The notes under the pieces were generated by a model. The model was not told the DNA's origin and searched no databases. It worked only from the letters and a program-made list of their open reading frames with translations. A stretch of 31,031 nucleotides of DNA, taken from positions 1-31,031 of the IMG/VR virus record IMGVR_UViG_3300030329_002217, one strand, 5' to 3'. The position numbers were made by a program, and so were the translations under genes. Origin of the DNA: a virus. The number at the start of each line of letters is the position of its first letter. Position 1 is the stretch's first letter. This document shows, in pieces, positions 1 to 31,031 of this stretch.

Positions 1-464
1 CTAATCCTAGTTTAGTAGATGCACAATCAACAGTAGATTTATTAGAGGTTGTAATTAGACGAGATAATACAGATATAAATGTTAGTAGAATATCAAGAGC
101 TGAGTATCTTAATATTCCTAATAAAACACAACAAGGTAGACCGACTCAATATTTTGTAGACAGGTTAATTACACCTACTATAAATTTGTGGCCAACACCA
201 GAGAACTCTACCGACCAATTAATTTTTTATAGAGTTAAAAGAATACAAGATGCTGACGCAGGAACTAATAATCCAGATGTTCCGTTTAGGTTTTTACCTT
301 GTTTAGTGGCAGGGTTGGCATATCATCTTGCAGTTAAAAAATCACCTCAAAGAATAGGTGTTTTAAAAGATATTTATGAAGAAGAATTTGCTCGAGCTGC
401 GGCTGAGGATGGCGAAAGAACTGCGCTACGTCTAGTTCCATCTTACTCATCGTTAAATATATAA
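1..464 (+). CDS. Head-tail adaptor-like protein, 5'-truncated
   Basis: The reading frame is open from base 3 and its start lies outside the window; about 153 residues are visible. It has the same layout as the protein at 969-1616: a G-x-P-x-Y element, then L-x-PTP, then a YY/FY strand, then a helical C-terminus with aromatic residues. This resembles the small head-tail adaptor (connector) proteins of podovirus- and siphovirus-like marine phages, which sit between portal and tail. The stop codon overlaps the next ATG by one base (TAATG), so translation is probably coupled. The TTG at 186 is internal, since the conserved part begins well upstream of it. The adaptor assignment comes from recalled family resemblance and position. 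Confidence 0.6.
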   Translation, partial: NPSLVDAQSTVDLLEVVIRRDNTDINVSRISRAEYLNIPNKTQQGRPTQYFVDRLITPTINLWPTPENSTDQLIFYRVKRIQDADAGTNNPDVPFRFLPCLVAGLAYHLAVKKSPQRIGVLKDIYEEEFARAAAEDGERTALRLVPSYSSLNI

Positions 465-967
465 TGGCTAATTTTGCTTCTGGAAAACACGCTTTAGGTA
501 TATCTGATAGATCAGGTAGAACTTATAAATTAAGAGAAATGATTAAAGAATGGAATGGGTTGTTGGTAGGAAAAGATGAATTTGAATCTAAACAACCGCA
601 ATTAGAGCCTAGACATACAAAAGCTGATCCGCAAGCATTACGTCAGAGTAGACCAGATAGGACAGAGCCAGCAGCTGAAGTTTTATTACCTTTTAATGGA
701 TTTAGAACAGGTGATAGTGGCTCCGCGATAATTACCGTTACAGAGCCTGGGCATGGCAGATCTACAGGCGATACAGTTAGATTTAGAAATGTAGAAAATT
801 TTGATGGTTTTACAGATTCTGTAATAGAGTTATCTTCAGGGTATTCGATAACAAAAGTGGACACTGATAGTTATACATTTACCACCAGTAGTGAAACTGC
901 TACAACAGGTAATGTTAAAGGTGGCGGTGGTTTTGCTTCAGCAGGTCCAGTAACAGTGAGCGCATAA
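464..967 (+). CDS. Virion structural protein with FCCH-like beta module
   Basis: A 167-residue protein between two adaptor-like genes. The N-terminal half (to about residue 80) is polar with many charged residues. The C-terminal half carries an EPGHG...TGD-x-V-x-F segment followed by a short strand-rich tail ending in glycine-rich GGGG. A recognisably similar module is inserted in the large tail protein at 5047-7347 (ADHG..KTGD..TF). This HG-x-x-TGD pattern is typical of the small FCCH-like beta modules that decorate phage tail and adaptor proteins. The specific role is unknown; a virion location is inferred from the module and the neighbours. Confidence 0.6.
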   Translation: MANFASGKHALGISDRSGRTYKLREMIKEWNGLLVGKDEFESKQPQLEPRHTKADPQALRQSRPDRTEPAAEVLLPFNGFRTGDSGSAIITVTEPGHGRSTGDTVRFRNVENFDGFTDSVIELSSGYSITKVDTDSYTFTTSSETATTGNVKGGGGFASAGPVTVSA

Positions 968-968
968 T

Positions 969-1616
969 ATGGCATTTACATTTACAACATTAAAAACAGC
1001 TATACAAGATTACACACAAAATAGTGAAACAACTTTTGTTAATAATTTATCAAGATTTATTATTAATGCAGAGGAACGCATTTTTAAAGAGGTGCAACTA
1101 GATGTATTTCGTAAAAATGTAAATGGTGCTATAACTTCAGGTAACAAGTTTTTAACAAAGCCTACTGATTATTTATCTACTTTTTCTTTAAGTATATTAA
1201 ATAATTCTGAAAATGTTTTTTTATTACGTAAGCACCCTACTTTTTTACAAGATTATACACCTGACCCAAGCACTACAGGAGTACCACAGTATTACGCAGA
1301 TTTTGATGAAACTACGTTTTTGTTAGCTCCAACACCAAGTTCTGGTTTTACTGCTGAATTACATTATTATCACAGGCCAACTTCAATAACTGCAACAAGT
1401 GATGGCACGAGTTGGTTAGGAACTAATGCAGAATTAGCTTTATTGTATGCCTCATTAGTTGAGGCTTATACCTTTATGAAGGGTGAAGCAGATATGTTTC
1501 AGATTTACAATGCAAGATATCAAGAAGCATTGGCGTATCTTAAAAATCTTGGTGAAGGTAAAAATACTAGAGATGAGTATCGTTATGACAAACTCAGAAA
1601 AGAGGTTATTGCTTAA
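969..1616 (+). CDS. Head-tail adaptor-like protein
   Basis: A 215-residue protein resembling the adaptor proteins that follow the portal/capsid genes in marine phages (DUF6682-like, recalled, not searched). Residues about 1-60 are helical (a TLKTAIQDYT start and a NAEERIF helix). The middle is strand-rich (VPQYYADFDE, LLAPTPSSG, LHYYHRP). The C-terminus is a helical bundle rich in Tyr, Ala and Glu. It is probably a paralogue of the truncated first gene. Its stop overlaps the next start (TTAATG), consistent with coupled translation in a structural operon. Confidence 0.65.
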   Translation: MAFTFTTLKTAIQDYTQNSETTFVNNLSRFIINAEERIFKEVQLDVFRKNVNGAITSGNKFLTKPTDYLSTFSLSILNNSENVFLLRKHPTFLQDYTPDPSTTGVPQYYADFDETTFLLAPTPSSGFTAELHYYHRPTSITATSDGTSWLGTNAELALLYASLVEAYTFMKGEADMFQIYNARYQEALAYLKNLGEGKNTRDEYRYDKLRKEVIA

Positions 1617-1906
1617 TGTTTAATCTTAAAGTTGAGTCAAATCTAGGAAATGCTGATGTAGTCACTTCTAAAAATAGAGGATTAAACGCTGAAGAATGGG
1701 CTAATATTGCAGTAAATAGAATAGTGCAAATTTCAGCTGACACTCCTTTACCATTACGAGAACAAGCTATCGCATATAAAGGACGTATAAAAAATTTATT
1801 AGTAGGTTACTTTCAACAAGTAGCAAAAAGTGAAAGGTCTACCATTAAAGTTATTTTAGAGCAAAAAGGTCATAGAGACATAGCGAAAAACATAGAGGAT
1901 ATTTAA
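1616..1906 (+). CDS. Conserved small phage protein, unknown function
   Basis: A 96-residue, mostly helical protein with a GLNAEEWANIAV element near residue 22 and an alternating charged C-terminal helix. It has no membrane segment or catalytic motif. Its place between the adaptor and structural genes, overlapping the adaptor stop, fits a small assembly or structural factor. Similar small proteins occur at this point in other marine phage genomes (from memory); no function can be assigned. Confidence 0.6.
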   Translation: MFNLKVESNLGNADVVTSKNRGLNAEEWANIAVNRIVQISADTPLPLREQAIAYKGRIKNLLVGYFQQVAKSERSTIKVILEQKGHRDIAKNIEDI

Positions 1907-7865: not shown

Positions 7866-9189
7866 CGGCATACAACAATTAGCAGACAATTTAGCAGAAT
7901 TTGGACGATATGGTGATACCTATATGGTACACGCAGCAGAGGGTGAGACAGTTGTTCCTGCTGAGATATTAGAAGCTAATCCAAATCTTAAAGACGAATT
8001 ATTCAGACAAATGCAATTAATGGGTATTCAAGACCCTAATCGTTATGTCGTAGGTAATACCTTAAATAGTATTAACCCTATCACTGGTCAACCAGAATTT
8101 TTCTTTAAAAAATTATTTAAGAAGGCATTTAAAGTTGTAAAAAAAGCAGCTCCTATTGTTGTAGGTGCAGTAGCAGGTCCACCCGCTGGAGCAGCATTAG
8201 GGGCAGCTATAGGTGCTGCTGAGGGTAAAGGACTTAAAGGTATTTTAGGTGGAGCAGCAACAGGATTTTTTGGGGGTCAAGCATTAGCAGGTGGGATAGC
8301 TGGTTTTCAGGGAGCACCTTCAAGTGCTGGTCTTTTTAGTAAATTAGGATCAGCAGTTAGGGGTGGCATTGGTAATCTTTCTTTAGATCCAAGAGGAAGT
8401 AAAACTATTGGTTTTGGTCAATTATTTGGACGAGCAGCACCAGCAGTACAGAGTAAATTTGCATTACCTACAACAGGTTCGCTTGGTAGTGAAGTATTAT
8501 CAACGACGCCTCCAGAAGGTTTAATGTCCTCCCCATTTGAAGCAGCAAAAAAAGTGCTTGAAAAAACACAATTAGGAGATCCAGGTTCTAAATCACAATT
8601 TTTAGAAGTAGCAGGGTCTAAATTTCCAACGTCTCTTAAGGATATTAATGTTGGAAGTAAGGTAGCAGAAGCAGCTAAAACTACAGGTGGTTTAACTAAA
8701 ATAACAGATGCTTTAAAAGGTGATTTAGGCAAAAATTTATTAAAATTTGGTTTACCATTGGGAGCTGCGGCTTTTGCTGCTAAGTATCAATCAGATTTTA
8801 ATAAACAAAGAACTGATGTAAATCCACAAATGACAGCGGGACAAGAGTTTTTTAGTACACCGCGTGACCAAAGAACAGCAGAACAACAGTTTGCAGCAGG
8901 AATAAGTGCTCCATTTGGAGCAGCAGAGTTAGCTAGACAAACTGGTATAAGTATTGAAGATGCACAAAATTATTTAAGTTCAGCATTTCCTAGTGAGCGT
9001 TTAATGGCAGCGACGGGTGGTGAAATAGTAGGCCCAGGCACTGGCACATCAGATAGTATACCTGCAAGATTGTCTGACGGTGAGTTTGTATTAACAGCAC
9101 AAGCAGTCAGGGGTGCGGGTAACGGAGACAGAGATTTAGGTGCAGCAAGAATGTACGACTTAATGAGTCGATTTGAAAGGATGGCATAA
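7858..9189 (+). CDS. Internal virion / ejection-like protein
   Basis: A 443-residue protein. Residues about 100-155 are rich in Gly/Ala with hydrophobic helices (VVGAVAGPPAGAALGAAIG), a membrane-interacting region preceded by a Lys-rich stretch (FKKLFKKAFKVVKKA). The C-terminus holds GGEIVGPGTGTSDSIPARLS followed by DGEFVLTAQAVRG, a recurrent motif in marine phage virion proteins. It is the first of four consecutive large genes that resemble internal virion proteins, which are expelled into the host to help DNA cross the envelope. The function is inferred from position and composition. Confidence 0.6.
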   Translation: MTNGIQQLADNLAEFGRYGDTYMVHAAEGETVVPAEILEANPNLKDELFRQMQLMGIQDPNRYVVGNTLNSINPITGQPEFFFKKLFKKAFKVVKKAAPIVVGAVAGPPAGAALGAAIGAAEGKGLKGILGGAATGFFGGQALAGGIAGFQGAPSSAGLFSKLGSAVRGGIGNLSLDPRGSKTIGFGQLFGRAAPAVQSKFALPTTGSLGSEVLSTTPPEGLMSSPFEAAKKVLEKTQLGDPGSKSQFLEVAGSKFPTSLKDINVGSKVAEAAKTTGGLTKITDALKGDLGKNLLKFGLPLGAAAFAAKYQSDFNKQRTDVNPQMTAGQEFFSTPRDQRTAEQQFAAGISAPFGAAELARQTGISIEDAQNYLSSAFPSERLMAATGGEIVGPGTGTSDSIPARLSDGEFVLTAQAVRGAGNGDRDLGAARMYDLMSRFERMA

Positions 9190-15307: not shown

Positions 15308-15769
15308 ATGCGTTTATCTGACCATTTTACCTTACAGGAGCTAACCAAGTCTTCTACAGCAGAGCGTAAAGGCATCAAAAACGCTCCTGACGACACGCAA
15401 CTAGAATCTTTGAAGAATGTATGCCTAAACATACTAGAACCCGTTAGAATCAATTATGGGGTGCCTTTGCGCCCATCTAGCGGTTTTCGTTGTTTAGAAC
15501 TGAATCGTGCGATAGGATCTAGTGATAGTTCTCAACACGTAAAAGGAGAAGCGGTTGATTTTGAAGTACCGCATATAAGCAATGAAGATTTGGCACATTG
15601 GATTATGCTTAATTTAGACTACGATCAATTAATTTTAGAGTTCTACCGTGAGGAAGAACCAAACTCAGGCTGGGTACATTGTAGTTATGTCAAAGGAAAA
15701 AATAGAAAAAAAGCACTCAAATACAACGGTAAAAACTACGAAAGGCTCTCATTCGCTAGAGAAGGATAG
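15308..15769 (+). CDS. M15-family D-Ala-D-Ala peptidase endolysin
   Basis: A 153-residue peptidase M15-type protein. The zinc motif S-x-H-x-x-G-x-A-x-D is at residues 75-84 (SSQHVKGEAVD; His77, Asp84), and the third ligand is in WVH at about 123-124. A Glu near 111 (LILEFY) is in the position of the catalytic residue. The helical start (HFTLQELTKSSTA) is typical. It probably cleaves peptidoglycan stem peptides at lysis. There is no signal peptide, so export needs a holin, consistent with the adjacent membrane gene. The 3' end overlaps that gene by about 80 bases in another frame. Confidence 0.85.
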   Translation: MRLSDHFTLQELTKSSTAERKGIKNAPDDTQLESLKNVCLNILEPVRINYGVPLRPSSGFRCLELNRAIGSSDSSQHVKGEAVDFEVPHISNEDLAHWIMLNLDYDQLILEFYREEEPNSGWVHCSYVKGKNRKKALKYNGKNYERLSFAREG

Positions 15770-16049
15770 TCGTTTCGAAGGTTTTGACTTAGATCACGAT
15801 GGCATCGTTAGTGATGATGAGATACAGAGTAGTAAAGAGTTAATACAGCTTGAGAAGCTACAAACTCAAAAAAAGATGTCATGGATTGCTTTATCTAGCA
15901 TGATTATTCTTACAATCATACTACTTACCGACTTAGTATCTACTGAAAAGCTAGACGTTCTCGAAGAGCTTATATCCATGTACTACCTTGCTATGGCAGG
16001 TGTGGTGTGTGGTTACTTTGGCGTTTCAGCATGGATGAGTAAAAAATAA
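15687..16049 (+). CDS. EF-hand holin-like membrane protein
   Basis: A 120-residue protein. Residues 34-45 form a canonical EF-hand loop, DLDHDGIVSDDE (Asp at 1, 3, 5, Gly at 6, Glu at 12). A coiled segment and two hydrophobic segments at about 64-84 and 98-117 follow. EF-hand holin-like proteins with this layout occur in several marine phages. The first ATG that keeps only conserved residues is 15687; an upstream TTG at 15648 would add a stretch lying inside the endolysin gene. The overlap with the endolysin suggests coupled lysis genes. Calcium dependence is a hypothesis. Confidence 0.75.
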   Translation: MSKEKIEKKHSNTTVKTTKGSHSLEKDSRFEGFDLDHDGIVSDDEIQSSKELIQLEKLQTQKKMSWIALSSMIILTIILLTDLVSTEKLDVLEELISMYYLAMAGVVCGYFGVSAWMSKK

Positions 16050-16075
16050 CTTAAATAAATAAAAAAGGTAAAAGT

Positions 16076-16210
16076 ATGACAGATCATCAGCAAATTAAAA
16101 AACAAGCAATATATCAATTCTGTAAAGAGATGTATCCTTTTTTAATATTGTGGTTAATTTTAACTTGTGTTTGTGGATTTATTGTAGCAACGCTTATTTG
16201 GTGGATGTAA
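16076..16210 (+). CDS. 44-residue single-pass membrane protein
   Basis: ATG at 16076 is preceded by AAAAAAGG eight bases upstream. The frame runs 44 codons to TAA at 16208-16210, flush with the next ATG at 16211. The product has a polar start (MTDHQQIKKQAIYQF) and a single long hydrophobic segment (residues about 20-44, containing LILWLILTCVC and ending IWWM). A small lysis-module membrane protein is plausible. No family is recognised. Confidence 0.65.
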   Translation: MTDHQQIKKQAIYQFCKEMYPFLILWLILTCVCGFIVATLIWWM

Positions 16211-16693
16211 ATGCCTGATCCATTGACCGTTACCGCTGCTATTACTATAGCTAGCAAATGTTTGAATGGCGTTACAAAAGCTGTTAATGCAGGTCGTGAG
16301 CTAGAATCTGCTATGGGACACATTTCTCGTTGGTTTGAGTGTGTATCTGATGTTAATGCTGCCGAACGTAGAGCTAAAAAACCTAGCTTATTCAAAAAAC
16401 TTACTCAAGCAAAATCTGTTGAAAAAGAAGCATTTGATGCGCTTATAGCCAAACGTAAGATGGCCGAGATGCGAAAACAACTTTATGAATTAATTGTTTA
16501 TTCATGGGGCAAAGAGGCTTGGGGTGAGTTGGTTCAAATGGAAAAAGATATTCGTGCTGAACGTAAAAGACAAGTGCATGCCCGGGCAGAATTTAGGCAA
16601 AAAGTAGCTGATTTTATATTTATTTGTATAGGAGGTATTGTTATTATTGGTCTACTTATAGGTTTTATTTATATACTGTCGTTAGGTGGATAA
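16211..16693 (+). CDS. Helical protein with C-terminal membrane anchor
   Basis: A 160-residue protein. The N-terminal 120 residues form charged helices (AGRELESAMGHISRWFECV, MEKDIRAERKRQVHARAEFR). The C-terminus (about 135-157; FIFICIGGIVIIGLLIGFIY) is a single membrane segment. Similar helical, tail-anchored proteins lie near lysis genes in marine phages; a spanin-like or assembly role is possible but unproven. The stop overlaps the next ATG (TAATG). Confidence 0.6.
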   Translation: MPDPLTVTAAITIASKCLNGVTKAVNAGRELESAMGHISRWFECVSDVNAAERRAKKPSLFKKLTQAKSVEKEAFDALIAKRKMAEMRKQLYELIVYSWGKEAWGELVQMEKDIRAERKRQVHARAEFRQKVADFIFICIGGIVIIGLLIGFIYILSLGG

Positions 16694-16905
16694 TGCTACT
16701 TGTATTTATGCTAACGGTATATTTAGATGGTCAACCTTATGGTGACAAAACTTACTGGAAAGATTTAAACCGATGTATGTACTTTGCTAAAACTATCCGG
16801 AGACAAAATTACTTTCCACCTAATAAAAAATATAACAGTCCAGAGGTAGCAGCTACTTGTTTACCTACTTATGTTAATTCATCAAAAACAAAGGTCTGGG
16901 AATGA
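16693..16905 (+). CDS. Small secreted-type cysteine protein
   Basis: A 70-residue protein starting at ATG 16693, which overlaps the previous stop. An in-frame upstream start at 16624 lies wholly inside the previous gene and is less likely. A short hydrophobic start (MLLVFMLTVYLDG) suggests export or membrane insertion. Two cysteines (in LNRCMYF and ATCLPTYV) could form a disulphide in the periplasm. With its neighbour this could be a two-gene spanin-like arrangement, but there is no lipobox. Confidence 0.55.
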   Translation: MLLVFMLTVYLDGQPYGDKTYWKDLNRCMYFAKTIRRQNYFPPNKKYNSPEVAATCLPTYVNSSKTKVWE

Positions 16906-16964
16906 TAGGCTTGTGGTTTACGCATTAGTTTTATATATTAATAAAAAAATAAAAGGGTAAATAA

Positions 16965-18279: not shown

Positions 18280-18657
18280 TTATCTTCCCCTAACTGGTTT
18301 CATTCCTCCACCTCTCATTCGAGTAGGCTTCATTCCTCCACCTCTCATTTGAGTAGGCTTCATTCCTCCACCTCTCATACCTGTTTTTTTAACTATGCCT
18401 GCTCCTCCGCGATTCATGCCTGTCTTCTTAACACCACCGCGATTCATACCTGTCTTCTTAACACCACCGCGATTCATGCCTGTCTTCTTAACTGTGCCAC
18501 CTACATTACGTTTAGTTCTAGTTTTTTTAGTGCCAGTTTTTTTAACTGTTTTTTTAACTTTAGTGCCGGTTTTTTTAACTGTTTTTCTACCCCTAGCCCC
18601 AGTTTTTTTAACTGTTTTTTTACCTCTTTTACTCGCACCTTTTTTTAATTTTGACAT
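18280..18657 (-). CDS. Lys/Gly repeat protein
   Basis: A 125-residue protein, nearly all low complexity. The first half has KKTVKKTGTK-type repeats. The second half has three KKTGMNRGG units followed by about three MKPT(Q/R)MRGGG units. The DNA carries matching 30-bp near-identical tandem repeats. The start has GAGG eight bases upstream of the ATG, in the end of the previous gene. The composition suggests a disordered nucleic-acid-binding protein. It is the most strongly repeated gene in the basic cassette. Confidence 0.6.
   Translation of the reverse strand: MSKLKKGASKRGKKTVKKTGARGRKTVKKTGTKVKKTVKKTGTKKTRTKRNVGGTVKKTGMNRGGVKKTGMNRGGVKKTGMNRGGAGIVKKTGMRGGGMKPTQMRGGGMKPTRMRGGGMKPVRGR
18301..18378. 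repeat. 30-bp tandem repeat, MRGGG-coding
   Basis: Two nearly identical 30-bp units at 18301-18330 and 18331-18360 (cattcctcca, cctctcattc/t, gagtaggctt) plus a partial third copy to 18378. They encode the MKPT(Q/R)MRGGG units of the basic protein at 18280-18657. The low divergence indicates recent slippage or recombination, and the period keeps the reading frame. Confidence 0.8.
18409..18491. repeat. 30-bp tandem repeat, KKTGMNRGG-coding
   Basis: Near-identical 30-bp units (gcgattcat(g/a)cc, tgtcttctta, acaccacc) at 18409-18438 and 18439-18468, with a third continuing to 18491 before diverging. They encode the KKTGMNRGGV units. Unlike the array at the right edge, these are ordinary coding tandem repeats. 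Confidence 0.8.
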
Positions 18658-23133: not shown

Positions 23134-24663
23134 TTAAAAAGGAGTATCCTCATTTATTTCAACGTCTGGTAATTCAACTTCACCTCGTTTCATTTCAGGA
23201 ATAAACCACACTCTAACCTTACGCCATTTGTCGCGAGAGTCTTTAAATCGATATTCTTTATCCGAGTTTGCTCCGTTGTTTAGCTCTTTTAATCGCTCTG
23301 TGATTTGACCACGAGTGTAATCTGTAAACCCATGCCGTCTTAAAAAATCTTGTAAAGAGCTTAATTTAAAAAAAGTTAGTCCACCATCTGTCCAAGGCTT
23401 ACCTGTCAGTAACTCTTCAGGGCTGGTGGCTCTAATACGGCTAGTGCAAAAAATTTCAAGTAACTCGTTAAATAAACCCTTTTGTGTTAACTCTTCAGGC
23501 ACTGAGATTCTAGTAGCACTATCTAATAAATTATCTACTAAATCTCTCCAGTCGTTCTCTTTCATGCGTACCGGCATACGATAAGTTTGTTCCATGCAAG
23601 CACGTTGGAACTCTACCTGCATTTGTAATTGTCTAGTAGTTAGCTCCAACCTTGCTCCATCAACATCTACAAACCATACTGGAGGTTCCGACTGAACAAC
23701 AGTCAACCCTCCTAATATTGGAAATGCTTGATTGTTTCCAATACCAAACTTGCGGTTACGGCATAAGCCACGATTACAATGACTACATAACGGCTCTTGT
23801 TTACACATGTAATAATAGTCTTTCTTATCCAACCTAGTTTGTATATCGACTATTTCTTTTGCGGGTAATGGTGGGCTTGAATAATTTTGATTATGTTCTT
23901 CTAGCTTCTCTTTCCAGTCGCTAGGGTTGGACATTTTATAGTATATCCCTATGTTCATAAGAGTTGTGTTACGACCACCTTCAGGAATTCCAAACTCTGT
24001 TAATTGCTGTAAACATGGTGGTCCATGTGGTAATAAATTGTCGTCATTATGTATTTTAAAATCTAATAATTGTTTTGGTGTTAGTGCAAGATTGCTTACT
24101 TGTTTAAAAAATTCCTCTAATGTGTAAGCATCACCATCTTTTTTAATGGCGTATCGAGTAGAATATTTAGCGTTAAAATAAGGTAGATTAATAAAATTAC
24201 CTACGTCCCCTCGTTCTACTTTTACTTCTTCCTGTTTAGGAAAAATCTCACACCCCCCGAAACCTAATGCACTAGCAAACTCCGCTAACTTGTCACGCAT
24301 CTCAGCTGCCGATATCTTTTCTTTAACAAACAGAAAACAATGTGCGCCACCACTTTTTGATCGACACACGACCAGCGGTAGTTTTAATCTGTCTATTTTA
24401 TTTTTTAATGCAATCAGGTCTAAGTTGTAGTCGTCAATGTCTAACGCGCCGAACACACATTTATTGTATTCGTCTATGGGTATTGAACCTATACCACGCT
24501 CACCTTTTAAATGTTGTTCCACCAGGTCAACCGTTAATGCTTCACGGACAATGAAACTTTTTGCGTTCATTTTTCCGTTTCGAGCACTATCAAGCACAGT
24601 GGTTTGCCCATGTGCTGTGGTGCACCCTGAAAATAACAAAAGAAATTTTTGTGCTAAACTCAT
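23134..24663 (-). CDS. Archaeo-eukaryotic-type primase (TOTE-like AEP)
   Basis: A 509-residue protein. The catalytic pattern of archaeo-eukaryotic primases is visible: ALDIDDYN (Asp75/Asp77), then CRSKSGGAHCF (S-G-G-x-H, about 104-108), then CEIFPKQ (about 138-144) and GNFINLPYF. This matches the primase domain of TOTE-type elements. From about 215, PPCLQQL, GIPEGGRN and IGIYYK look like a PriCT-type domain, with a cysteine set at 217, 287, 293, 296 and 301 that could bind zinc or an iron-sulphur cluster. It probably makes primers for the family A polymerase. A hairpin covers its ribosome binding region. Confidence 0.8.
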   Translation of the reverse strand: MSLAQKFLLLFSGCTTAHGQTTVLDSARNGKMNAKSFIVREALTVDLVEQHLKGERGIGSIPIDEYNKCVFGALDIDDYNLDLIALKNKIDRLKLPLVVCRSKSGGAHCFLFVKEKISAAEMRDKLAEFASALGFGGCEIFPKQEEVKVERGDVGNFINLPYFNAKYSTRYAIKKDGDAYTLEEFFKQVSNLALTPKQLLDFKIHNDDNLLPHGPPCLQQLTEFGIPEGGRNTTLMNIGIYYKMSNPSDWKEKLEEHNQNYSSPPLPAKEIVDIQTRLDKKDYYYMCKQEPLCSHCNRGLCRNRKFGIGNNQAFPILGGLTVVQSEPPVWFVDVDGARLELTTRQLQMQVEFQRACMEQTYRMPVRMKENDWRDLVDNLLDSATRISVPEELTQKGLFNELLEIFCTSRIRATSPEELLTGKPWTDGGLTFFKLSSLQDFLRRHGFTDYTRGQITERLKELNNGANSDKEYRFKDSRDKWRKVRVWFIPEMKRGEVELPDVEINEDTPF

Positions 24664-28326: not shown

Positions 28327-28677
28327 ATGGGAGAAGTTATTGACATAACAGATGAATTAGAATTTTTAAGATTAACAAATAATTATTCTTATTGGTTACA
28401 AGTTCCTAAAAAAATTCGAATGAAAATGTATTTAAAACACGCTCAAAATAGGGGTGAGTTTTATGAAATAATAGATAATATAGATTCCGCTGAAATATTA
28501 AAGTATTTAGAGGATTTTAATAATGGTAAAAGTTCTGGTTATAGATTAGCTAACGCTTTGTTAAATGCTTTTGAAGAGTATTATCACGAACATTTTGATG
28601 AAAAATTAGATGATGAAAGATTTAGAAAAGGTAAATATATTTATGATGAGGAGTTAGGGCATTTTATTGAGCCTTAA
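28327..28677 (+). CDS. Acidic helical protein, unknown function
   Basis: A 116-residue protein started at ATG 28327, because AGGAG ends six bases upstream; an ATG at 28321 directly adjoins the AGGAG. Acidic and aromatic-rich, with helical stretches (EIIDNIDSAEILKYLEDF, ALLNAFEEYYHEHFDEKL). No family is recognised. Its stop overlaps the stop of the convergent PP-loop gene (TTAA). Confidence 0.55.
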   Translation: MGEVIDITDELEFLRLTNNYSYWLQVPKKIRMKMYLKHAQNRGEFYEIIDNIDSAEILKYLEDFNNGKSSGYRLANALLNAFEEYYHEHFDEKLDDERFRKGKYIYDEELGHFIEP

Positions 28678-29489
28678 ACTCCACAATATCCTTCACATTC
28701 GTCAAGTAAACTCATTTGCGCTGAATTAGATAACGTGTAGAAATCTATTTTATCTAATGGTTTACATGACCTATGCAGAAATAAATTCCCATCAACACCG
28801 CTTAATTTTCGAATAGTTTTATCAAATTGAACGACATCTTCCCATTCTTTTTTAGGCCCATTCTTTATTTTTAACCATTCATGATTATTGTGAAAAGGGC
28901 AACATAAACAAGCTGATCGTGGTGGCTCTGGATAATTGTTCTTTTTCATCCACTCCAGGCATTGACCTCTATATATTCTTTTTTCTATCAAAGGGTATAC
29001 GTTTCTGCGCCATGGTTCGACAAAAGGCACTTTTTGTCTTTGTATTTCGTCATAAGATATGCCATACCACAAATCAACCACATGTTCTTTAGGAAATCTT
29101 TGTCTACGCTTTAAACCTAAAATATGCTCCCTGGTGTATTTGGTTACTGGGTTTATTTTATATTCTGCTGTGCATTGTCGTTGTAACATACCCACGCTAC
29201 CATCTTTCTTATTTAAAGTGAAATAAGGTAAAGCAGCACCTCTGCTTGATCTAACTCTCGTGTTAATTTGATCTTGTCTGAGATTACCCCTCGAAACTCT
29301 CGCAACTTTAAATGGTAGTTGTTTTTCTAACCAATCTAACCAATCGTACACGGCTTTTGGTTCATACCCAGTATCAGCGAATACTGCTACATCAGGCATA
29401 GGAGTTACTTCTCCTTTAGCTGCCATTAAAGCTAAAGCTGAAGATTGAACACCTGCCCCTAAACTTAATATTGTTGTTATTTTTTTCAT
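28674..29489 (-). CDS. PAPS-reductase-like PP-loop protein
   Basis: A 271-residue protein of the PAPS reductase/adenine nucleotide alpha-hydrolase family. The PP-loop is SLGAGVQSSA (9-18), then FADTGYEP (37-44), then QRQCTAEYKINPV (103-115, Cys106). A cysteine set at 194, 196 and 197 (ACLCCPF) with Cys177 and the terminal CEGYCGV (265, 269) suggests a metal or Fe-S site. Family members activate a substrate with ATP for sulphur or other transfer (DndC is a relative), but many phage members are unassigned. It overlaps the methyltransferase stop (ATGA), so the two are probably coexpressed. Confidence 0.75.
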   Translation of the reverse strand: MKKITTILSLGAGVQSSALALMAAKGEVTPMPDVAVFADTGYEPKAVYDWLDWLEKQLPFKVARVSRGNLRQDQINTRVRSSRGAALPYFTLNKKDGSVGMLQRQCTAEYKINPVTKYTREHILGLKRRQRFPKEHVVDLWYGISYDEIQRQKVPFVEPWRRNVYPLIEKRIYRGQCLEWMKKNNYPEPPRSACLCCPFHNNHEWLKIKNGPKKEWEDVVQFDKTIRKLSGVDGNLFLHRSCKPLDKIDFYTLSNSAQMSLLDECEGYCGV

Positions 29490-30535
29490 TTTACTTCCAT
29501 ATAAGCACTAATAAATTTAGCTGCTACTTGAGGTATGATTGCGTTACCTATGCCTTTGAGCGAGCCTGAGTAACTGTATTTTCTGGGATTGCCTTCTGAA
29601 TCCATGACTTCGGGTACCCCATTAACCAAAGGCTGAACATCGGATTCAAGCGGAATCGGGCGGGTTTTTCCGTCTCCACATTCGACCCATTCGACTGCTC
29701 TCCAGTCAACTGAGCTGTTATGTCCAATGTATCCGTTGAGATGTGTCCGTTCCTCGTTCGACCGCCCTGGTAGCCCCCCTTGTAATCCCTCGTTGACGGA
29801 GTCGGCCATGTGTGAACGCTGTCCCTGAGGTTTGCTCCGTACTCTATTCCCGTGGTGTCGCTCTGACGTTTTCCCCTCTTGTTTAATTTGGCTGCTCCCC
29901 CTGTCCCGTCTACTGTCCTCGGTGTCGGCCATGTGTGAACGCTCTCTCTCAAATTCGAACAACCGCCTTTCTTCGCACGAGGGCTGAGTTCTTCTCGACT
30001 CCTTATTTGATTGCCTCTTGCTCCGTCCATCGTTTGTGGTGTCGGCCACGAACCATAATCGCTGCCTCCGGTGATAGGCTCCGACAGTGTATCCTGACAA
30101 TACGCTCGAAGCGAATCGGTAGTCACACGCTTCAAGATCTGTTGCGACTGCATCCAGCCACCCGAACCCAATCGCTCCAATAACCTGCTCGCCAAAGACT
30201 GTTGCAGGTCTTGACTCTCTGATGAGGCGAAACCATTGTGGCCAAAGGTTACGCTCGTCATCTGCGCCTTTTCTTTGTCCTGCTGCTGAGAAACTTTGAC
30301 AGGGGCAACTTCCAGTCCAAACAGGTCGGTCTGAATCCCACCTGGCGAGTTGGAGGGCGTAAGCCCACCCTCCGATTCCTGCGAAGAAGTGACACTGTTT
30401 AAACTCTTTAAGGTCTTTTGGTTGGACATCTTCGATTGATCGATCATCTACAACTCCCTCTGGTATCAATTTCTCTCGGACTAGGTTACGTAACCACTCC
30501 GAAGCATATTTATCGTTTTCATTATAGTAATTAAT
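29486..30535 (-). CDS. C5 cytosine DNA methyltransferase
   Basis: About 349 residues. Motif I is FAGIGGW (51-57), motif IV is SCPCQSF (catalytic Cys79), motif VI is FGEQV, motif VIII is RRQRLWFVA (156-164), motif X is GNAIIPQ (330-336). An ORF from the TTG at 30469 would drop the conserved N-terminal element YYNENDKYASEWLRNL. The frame stays open to an in-frame TAG at about 30544. The likely start is ATT at 30535-30533, with GGAG seven bases upstream. The recognition domain between about 165 and 300 is repetitive (SHMADT twice). It methylates cytosine C5 in a sequence not predictable here. Local GC is near 50%, well above neighbours. Confidence 0.85.
   Translation of the reverse strand: MNYYNENDKYASEWLRNLVREKLIPEGVVDDRSIEDVQPKDLKEFKQCHFFAGIGGWAYALQLARWDSDRPVWTGSCPCQSFSAAGQRKGADDERNLWPQWFRLIRESRPATVFGEQVIGAIGFGWLDAVATDLEACDYRFASSVLSGYTVGAYHRRQRLWFVADTTNDGRSKRQSNKESRRTQPSCEERRLFEFERERSHMADTEDSRRDRGSSQIKQEGKTSERHHGNRVRSKPQGQRSHMADSVNEGLQGGLPGRSNEERTHLNGYIGHNSSVDWRAVEWVECGDGKTRPIPLESDVQPLVNGVPEVMDSEGNPRKYSYSGSLKGIGNAIIPQVAAKFISAYMEVK
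29548..30447 (-). CDS. Overlapping alternative-frame ORF within the methyltransferase gene
   Basis: A 299-codon ORF, ATG to stop, wholly inside the methyltransferase gene in another frame. Its translation is not random: it contains GGLTPSNSPGGIQTDLFGLE, then ASSESQDLQQSLASRLLERL, repeated HTWPTP elements and, near the end, RLNPMFSLWLMGYPKSW. I recall the same ordered motifs in annotated phage proteins found with methyltransferases. It may be a true overlapping gene, or a shadow frame kept open because the methyltransferase sequence is constrained. A stop-free 900 bases is unexpected in this AT-rich genome, though this segment is richer in GC. Confidence 0.4.
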   Translation of the reverse strand: MIDQSKMSNQKTLKSLNSVTSSQESEGGLTPSNSPGGIQTDLFGLEVAPVKVSQQQDKEKAQMTSVTFGHNGFASSESQDLQQSLASRLLERLGSGGWMQSQQILKRVTTDSLRAYCQDTLSEPITGGSDYGSWPTPQTMDGARGNQIRSREELSPRAKKGGCSNLRESVHTWPTPRTVDGTGGAAKLNKRGKRQSDTTGIEYGANLRDSVHTWPTPSTRDYKGGYQGGRTRNGHISTDTLDITAQLTGEQSNGSNVETEKPARFRLNPMFSLWLMGYPKSWIQKAIPENTVTQARSKA

Positions 30536-30557: not shown

Positions 30558-31031
30558 TTATTCGCTCGAGTTTTATGTTTGAATCTGCATAATTGGCTCG
30601 CTCTGTGGTTATGTTTCTATCAATTTATATGGCTCGCTCCGTCGGAGTGTTTCTATCTCATCATGTGGCTCGCTCCCCAAATTTGTTTCTATCGCGCTCT
30701 GTGGCTCGCTCCTGTCAAGTGTTTCTATCTTTTCAGATGGCTCGCTCGATAGTCTTATTTCTGTCCTTCTTATTGGCTCGCTCTGCGGATATGTTTCTAT
30801 CTAATTTAATGGCTCGCTCTACATTTTTGTTTCAATCATTCCTCTGGGCTTGCTTTAGTATAATGTTTCTTTCACGTACATTGACTCGCTCCGGACATTT
30901 GTTTCTATCGCCAATGATGGCTCGCTCTCCAAGAGTGTTTCTATCTTGTTATATGGCTCGCTCACTCACATTGTTTCTATCTTATCTTGTGGCTCGCTCT
31001 TGCTGAATGTTTCTATCTTGTTTTGTGGCTC
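30558..31031. repeat. Interspersed dual-repeat array, 36-bp period
   Basis: Each unit is TGGCTCGCTC, 8 variable bases, TGTTTCTATC, 8 variable bases. Complete units start at 30594 and every 36 bases to 30990 (twelve units); a further TGGCTC begins at 31026 and runs off the window. A degenerate unit sits at 30558-30593 (7/10 and 8/10 matches). The 24 spacers of the twelve complete units are all different. Spacing is exactly 8 throughout, even where the constant blocks decay (30756-30765, 30828-30837, 30846-30855, 30864-30873 and 30882-30891). No such blocks were seen elsewhere in the window. The array lies immediately upstream of the methyltransferase start. Its role is unknown. Confidence 0.95.

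Follow-up and report, generated by a model that had tools for sequence, protein, structure and literature searches.

Tandem Interspaced Guide RNA (TIGR) arrays consist of alternating edge and loop repeats of 8–12 nt with short spacers (~9 nt, and 8 nt in SpTIGR) between them (Faure et al. 2025, PMC12045711). Processing yields tigRNAs of 36 nt, each with two guides, one pairing with either strand of the DNA target. A 5'-truncated edge repeat stands at the array start and a 3'-truncated one at its end, while a terminator is typical but not obligatory. The authors suggested that rival elements are blocked by these systems, and listed their targets, and how the arrays emerge and expand, as open questions (PMC12045711). 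In the TIGR-TasH system of Salicola phage CGphi29 (SpTIGR; PMC12045711; PDB 9w04, 21kl), 36-nt dual-repeat units with 8-nt spacers directly follow tasH in the same orientation. Their edge repeats are of the AAGCGAGCCA and (A)AGCGAGCCA type and their loop repeats of the AAGACAACCA type, and the Tas protein combines a Nop fold with an HNH domain. In TIGR-TasA systems, such as that of Flavonifractor plautii (FpTIGR; PMC12045711), a solo Nop protein without a nuclease accompanies a dual-repeat array with 9-nt spacers.

The stretch of DNA analysed here, referred to as the window, is a linear IMG/VR contig of 31,031 bases from an uncultured tailed phage, and it ends inside a repeat array. We are highly confident that this is a TIGR array and belongs to a phage TIGR-TasA system. 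It has dual 10-nt repeats with 8-nt spacers, a 36-nt unit, truncated edge repeats, and an adjacent Nop-domain Tas gene. The first-pass annotation regarded the two-block design as unprecedented, but it is the dual-repeat design of the TIGR array (Faure et al. 2025, PMC12045711). The kind itself was thus published in 2025, and, measured against the open-licence literature, only the turnover of units and the apparent tas-array exchange among close relatives are new here.

Two 10-mers alternate with 8-base variable stretches at a period of 36 bases, and no indel interrupts them up to the contig end, as the first-pass annotation had described. Exact pairs of the two repeats across eight bases occur 8 times in the window, against 0.00 expected in shuffles. 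The annotation had placed the array at 30558–31031 with thirteen-plus units. Thirteen units do lie in the window, but the array proper starts with a truncated repeat at 30562 and its total is 20. On the minus strand each unit reads edge repeat GAGCGAGCCA, spacer A (8 nt), the A-rich loop repeat GATAGAAACA, and spacer B (8 nt). The mean column entropy on this strand is 0.32 bits for the edge repeat and 0.18 bits for the loop repeat, against 1.71 and 1.78 bits for the two spacers, in agreement with the earlier description of conserved blocks and freely variable spacers. All spacers of the joined array differ (40 of 40), again as claimed, and simple recent tandem duplication is insufficient as an explanation, a point on which the annotation is upheld. 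The constant blocks had also been called exact, and this does not hold: 4 of the 13 loop repeats in the window (30576, 30756, 30828, and 30864) and two full edge repeats (30846 and 30882) differ from the consensus.

The window carries no tas gene, and array and tas are linked through a contig join over 78 bases. The first 78 bases of a second contig (L013; 8,452 bases; reversed) are identical to the final 78 of the window, and seven more units follow there. The overlap suggests that the two contigs join, which is supported by the sister contigs L018, L017, and L009, where array and tas are unbroken on one contig. An assembly artefact, a concern that the first-pass annotation had raised, is rejected because more than one metagenome yields the same array (L169/L010; L208/L209/L210/L216). 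Read from the tas stop codon, the joined array runs TTTTT-AGCCA, 20 units of 36 nt each, and GAGCGA, after which the sequence is unrelated. Both ends are truncated edge repeats, the 5'-truncated AGCCA lying over the tas stop codon. A crude minus-strand scan for Rho-independent terminators, by a consensus that demands GC-containing stems in a genome of 37% GC, found none past the array. The layout of the CGphi29 array, downstream of tasH and on the tas strand, fixes both the strand and the identity of the edge repeat here, and the meaningful array strand is accordingly the minus strand, co-directional with the tas gene. The coordinates are collected in Table 1.

Table 1. Positions of the array and related features (window positions unless another contig is named).
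Feature	Position	Strand	Remark
TIGR array, 13 of 20 units in window	30562..31031	(-)	Matches the dual-repeat description in PMC12045711; goes on in L013
3'-truncated edge repeat GAGCGA, array 3' end	30562..30567	(-)	
First full edge repeat GAGCGAGCCA	30594..30603	(-)	Recurs each 36 bases to contig end; AGCGAGCCA common with CGphi29 array
First exact loop repeat GATAGAAACA	30612..30621	(-)	Recurs each 36 bases; degenerate copy 30576-30585
78-base overlap identical to L013 end	30954..31031	(.)	L013 beyond it: 7 units and tasA (L013 7304-8125, array strand)
L216 tas	20-790		
L216 array	821-1804		

The tas product of L013 is a Nop-domain protein of 273 aa, on whose stop codon the array begins. Its family matches Pfam Transposase_20 above the cut-off, and a PDB search with a profile of 13 members gives TasR (9mty) at 6.7e-29 and TasH at 6e-19, followed by the IS110-family recombinases IS621 (1.1e-5) and ISCro4 (6.2e-5). 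The AlphaFold (AF2) model of the L013 protein has a mean pLDDT of 84.6, with low confidence for residues 1–12, and its top 11 Foldseek matches are all TasH or TasR. Alignment of the model with VIA-align 2 gives Z 19.1 against TasH (rmsd 3.4–3.7 over 213–225 residues) and 18.0 against TasR, with 12.8–13.2 for the IS110-type recombinases IS621 (13.2) and ISCro4, and 7.0 for the first unrelated chain. Residues 28–273 align to TasH 65–307, the part that follows the HNH domain, so the protein is a TasA, a solo Nop protein without a nuclease domain.

With SpTIGR the locus shares the unit length, the spacer length, the Nop fold, the position of the array directly downstream of tas on the same strand, and AGCGAGCCA in the edge repeat. 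It differs in lacking the HNH domain, in a protein identity of ~25%, in its loop repeat, GATAGAAACA here, and, as far as the crude scan shows, in having no clear terminator. By description it is like FpTIGR in its solo Nop protein and dual-repeat array, with spacers of 8 nt against 9 nt there. The IS110-family bridge-RNA recombinases (IS621, ISCro4) also have a Nop-like RNA-binding domain and dual guides, but here there are no transposon ends and the guides are carried in a long array. No N-terminal DEDD nuclease domain was found in the L013 protein, its match being confined to the C-terminal Transposase_20/Nop region, and membership in the IS110 transposons was therefore rejected. CRISPR arrays likewise combine constant repeats with spacers that are unique and change from strain to strain. 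Their single repeat of 25–36 nt and spacers of similar length contrast with the two 10-nt repeats and 8-nt spacers here, where no Cas genes are seen, and CRISPR-Cas membership was rejected as well.

A pattern search in viral metagenomes, as the first-pass annotation had proposed, recovered the exact array pattern in 13 IMG/VR stretches and the relaxed pattern in 23. Among genomes the pattern forms an array only in a 3.4-kb contig of a gammaproteobacterial MAG, which also encodes Tas and is probably viral or proviral. Single matches in three other genome contigs (L022, L023, L025) are presumed to be chance, with one relaxed-pattern match each and ~7 expected by a rough count. The Tas family is encoded in 16 of the 24 records searched, and tblastn with Tas finds Salicola phage CGphi29, the phage of the published SpTasH. 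A period of 32–45 bases with at least 10 conserved columns (maximum in shuffles 7) is present in 77 of 83 IMG/VR Tas loci; a handful of the 77 are other tandem repeats, and dual-repeat arrays, mostly of period 36 (few of 34–38), accompany ~70 of the 83. The non-redundant set on the strand of tas comprises 54 arrays, 44 of which start just downstream of the gene, with a median distance of 25 nt from its end. In related arrays GAnnGnnnCA fits nearly all repeats at edge and loop positions alike, which would fit recognition of both by a single symmetric dimer.

Variation in arrangement was also noted. Some phage contigs have several TIGR sub-arrays that lie apart from one another (L012 645-2755, L016, L021, and L033), and the repeats are degenerate in L016 and L021 (contigs of 112 kb and 24 kb). 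The tas-array cassette lies before an SNF2 helicase gene in G001 (15507-16943), and after it in the window and G012.

These relatives bear on the explanations offered earlier. Partition, origin, packaging, and decoy functions had been proposed, with the array as a set of DNA sites whose two 10-mers are recognised by a protein. Iterons and T7-type short repeats are arrays of this sort near replication or packaging sites. The even spacing would suit such sites, as would the ParB-like genes found beside some TasA loci (PMC12045711). However, the arrays of the relatives adjoin the Nop-domain tas gene, and the constant same-strand association of 54 non-redundant arrays with an RNA-guided protein, together with truncated edge repeats like those of transcribed TIGR arrays, argues against DNA sites, as does the replacement of whole units between near-identical phages, which such sites would not need. 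We consider an array of DNA sites very unlikely. Coding repeats of a repetitive protein can be practically dismissed. A plus-strand frame of 137 aa is open across most of the array, but it stops within a spacer, the spacers are not conserved in relatives, where lengths of 7 and 9 bases break the frame, and no frame is conserved across them; the annotation had itself argued against a protein repeat.

It had also proposed a repeated RNA leader or attenuator for the methyltransferase operon. Array and methyltransferase are indeed on the same strand, with ~90 bases between the array end and the gene start. Yet the arrays of relatives adjoin tas rather than the methyltransferase, no relative of the latter was found in the array-bearing related phages G001, G007, G009, and G012, and L018 has lost most of the methyltransferase but kept the array. 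A leader function is extremely unlikely on these grounds.

The TIGR-TasA reading brings with it the question of how the guides change. The window phage and L018 have 97% base identity over 8.7 kb beside the array, and 348 of 359 bases are equal in the methyltransferase start and leader. Their tas genes are equal at 787 of 822 bases (35 differ) and at 272 of 273 residues, and Tas looks to be under purifying selection. The arrays, of 20 and 16 units, have only one unit in common, at different positions. L015 and L017, with identical outer flanks beside the array, have several common units in a partly changed order, and their arrays differ by units gained or lost and by point changes in spacers. 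Pairs of tas genes with 90–95% identity often lack any common spacer (L192/L198, L188/L198). Guides are thus replaced almost completely between near-identical phages. The tas of L216 is 99.4% identical to that of L215 and only 96.1% identical to that of L208–L210, yet the array of L216 is that of L208–L210 (40 of 40 spacers). Such a combination suggests tas-array exchange by recombination in L216. Within arrays, duplicated units that differ only in their spacers suggest that internal duplication also contributes.

A tentative explanation, and a doubtful one, is that an active process, as yet undescribed, renews the TasA arrays in these phages, so that guides track changing targets although no adaptation genes are known. 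If active, this process may be the gain of new guide pairs or the exchange of whole arrays between phages. Groups of close relatives whose Tas and flanks are near-identical but whose arrays are not provide material for learning how spacers are gained, lost, and exchanged, and such phage pairs, combined with matched host and virus data, could reveal what the spacers target.

For the mechanism, the array, its linked and co-directional Tas gene, their conservation, the predicted fold, the kinship of the repeats to the tested SpTIGR array, and the turnover come from the data here. Expression, processing, and binding of both DNA strands we infer from the published family. The gene tasA and the array are read in one direction, on the window minus strand, and by that analogy the transcript would be cut in the middle of the edge repeats to give 36-nt tigRNAs with two 8-nt guides each. 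A TasA dimer would bind one tigRNA, whose two guides would each pair with a different strand of a single short DNA target, which would be opened and bent. Since TasA has no nuclease, its effect would most likely be blocking, of transcription or replication; that the blocked DNA would be a competing genetic element or host DNA is our guess at the purpose.

Candidate targets were sought by joining spacer A to the reverse complement of spacer B with a gap of 0–2, a geometry deduced from 8-nt 3' overhangs (PMC12045711). The 13 array-bearing phage records contain 0 exact and 4 one-mismatch paired-spacer matches (shuffled pairs 0 and 1–4), and 848 kb of DNA-polymerase relatives contain 2 exact ones at one site (shuffles 0–1). 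The full 2.9 Mb of fetched loci contain 3 distinct exact ones (shuffles 1–4, other controls 0–4). The candidates in L200, L119, and L105/L107/L188/L189 are thus not above chance, and, as no enrichment is seen among kin, the window phage and its kin are not obviously targeting each other. Spacers of this array favour A at position 5, but the preference is lost when 400 units are considered. In 400–409 spacer pairs from related arrays, both spacers A and B have a weak positional bias, with few G at position 1 and a C-rich position 6.

Several neighbouring genes were noted. L018 (8600-8910) lacks ~690 bases in the cytosine methyltransferase gene (window 29551-30235), and the broken gene adjoins the TIGR array and tas. 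A weakly PAPS-reductase-like protein adjoins the methyltransferase in the window (28674-29489, minus strand). Further away on the same strand, the window encodes a primase-like protein with an AEP-TOTE domain match (23134-24663) and a small, basic protein whose tandem KKTGMNRGG-type repeats arise from near-identical 30-base DNA repeats (18280-18657). In L009, from a related phage, a Mom-family DNA modification gene (8011-8667, minus strand; Pfam 4.8e-39) lies close to tas and the array.
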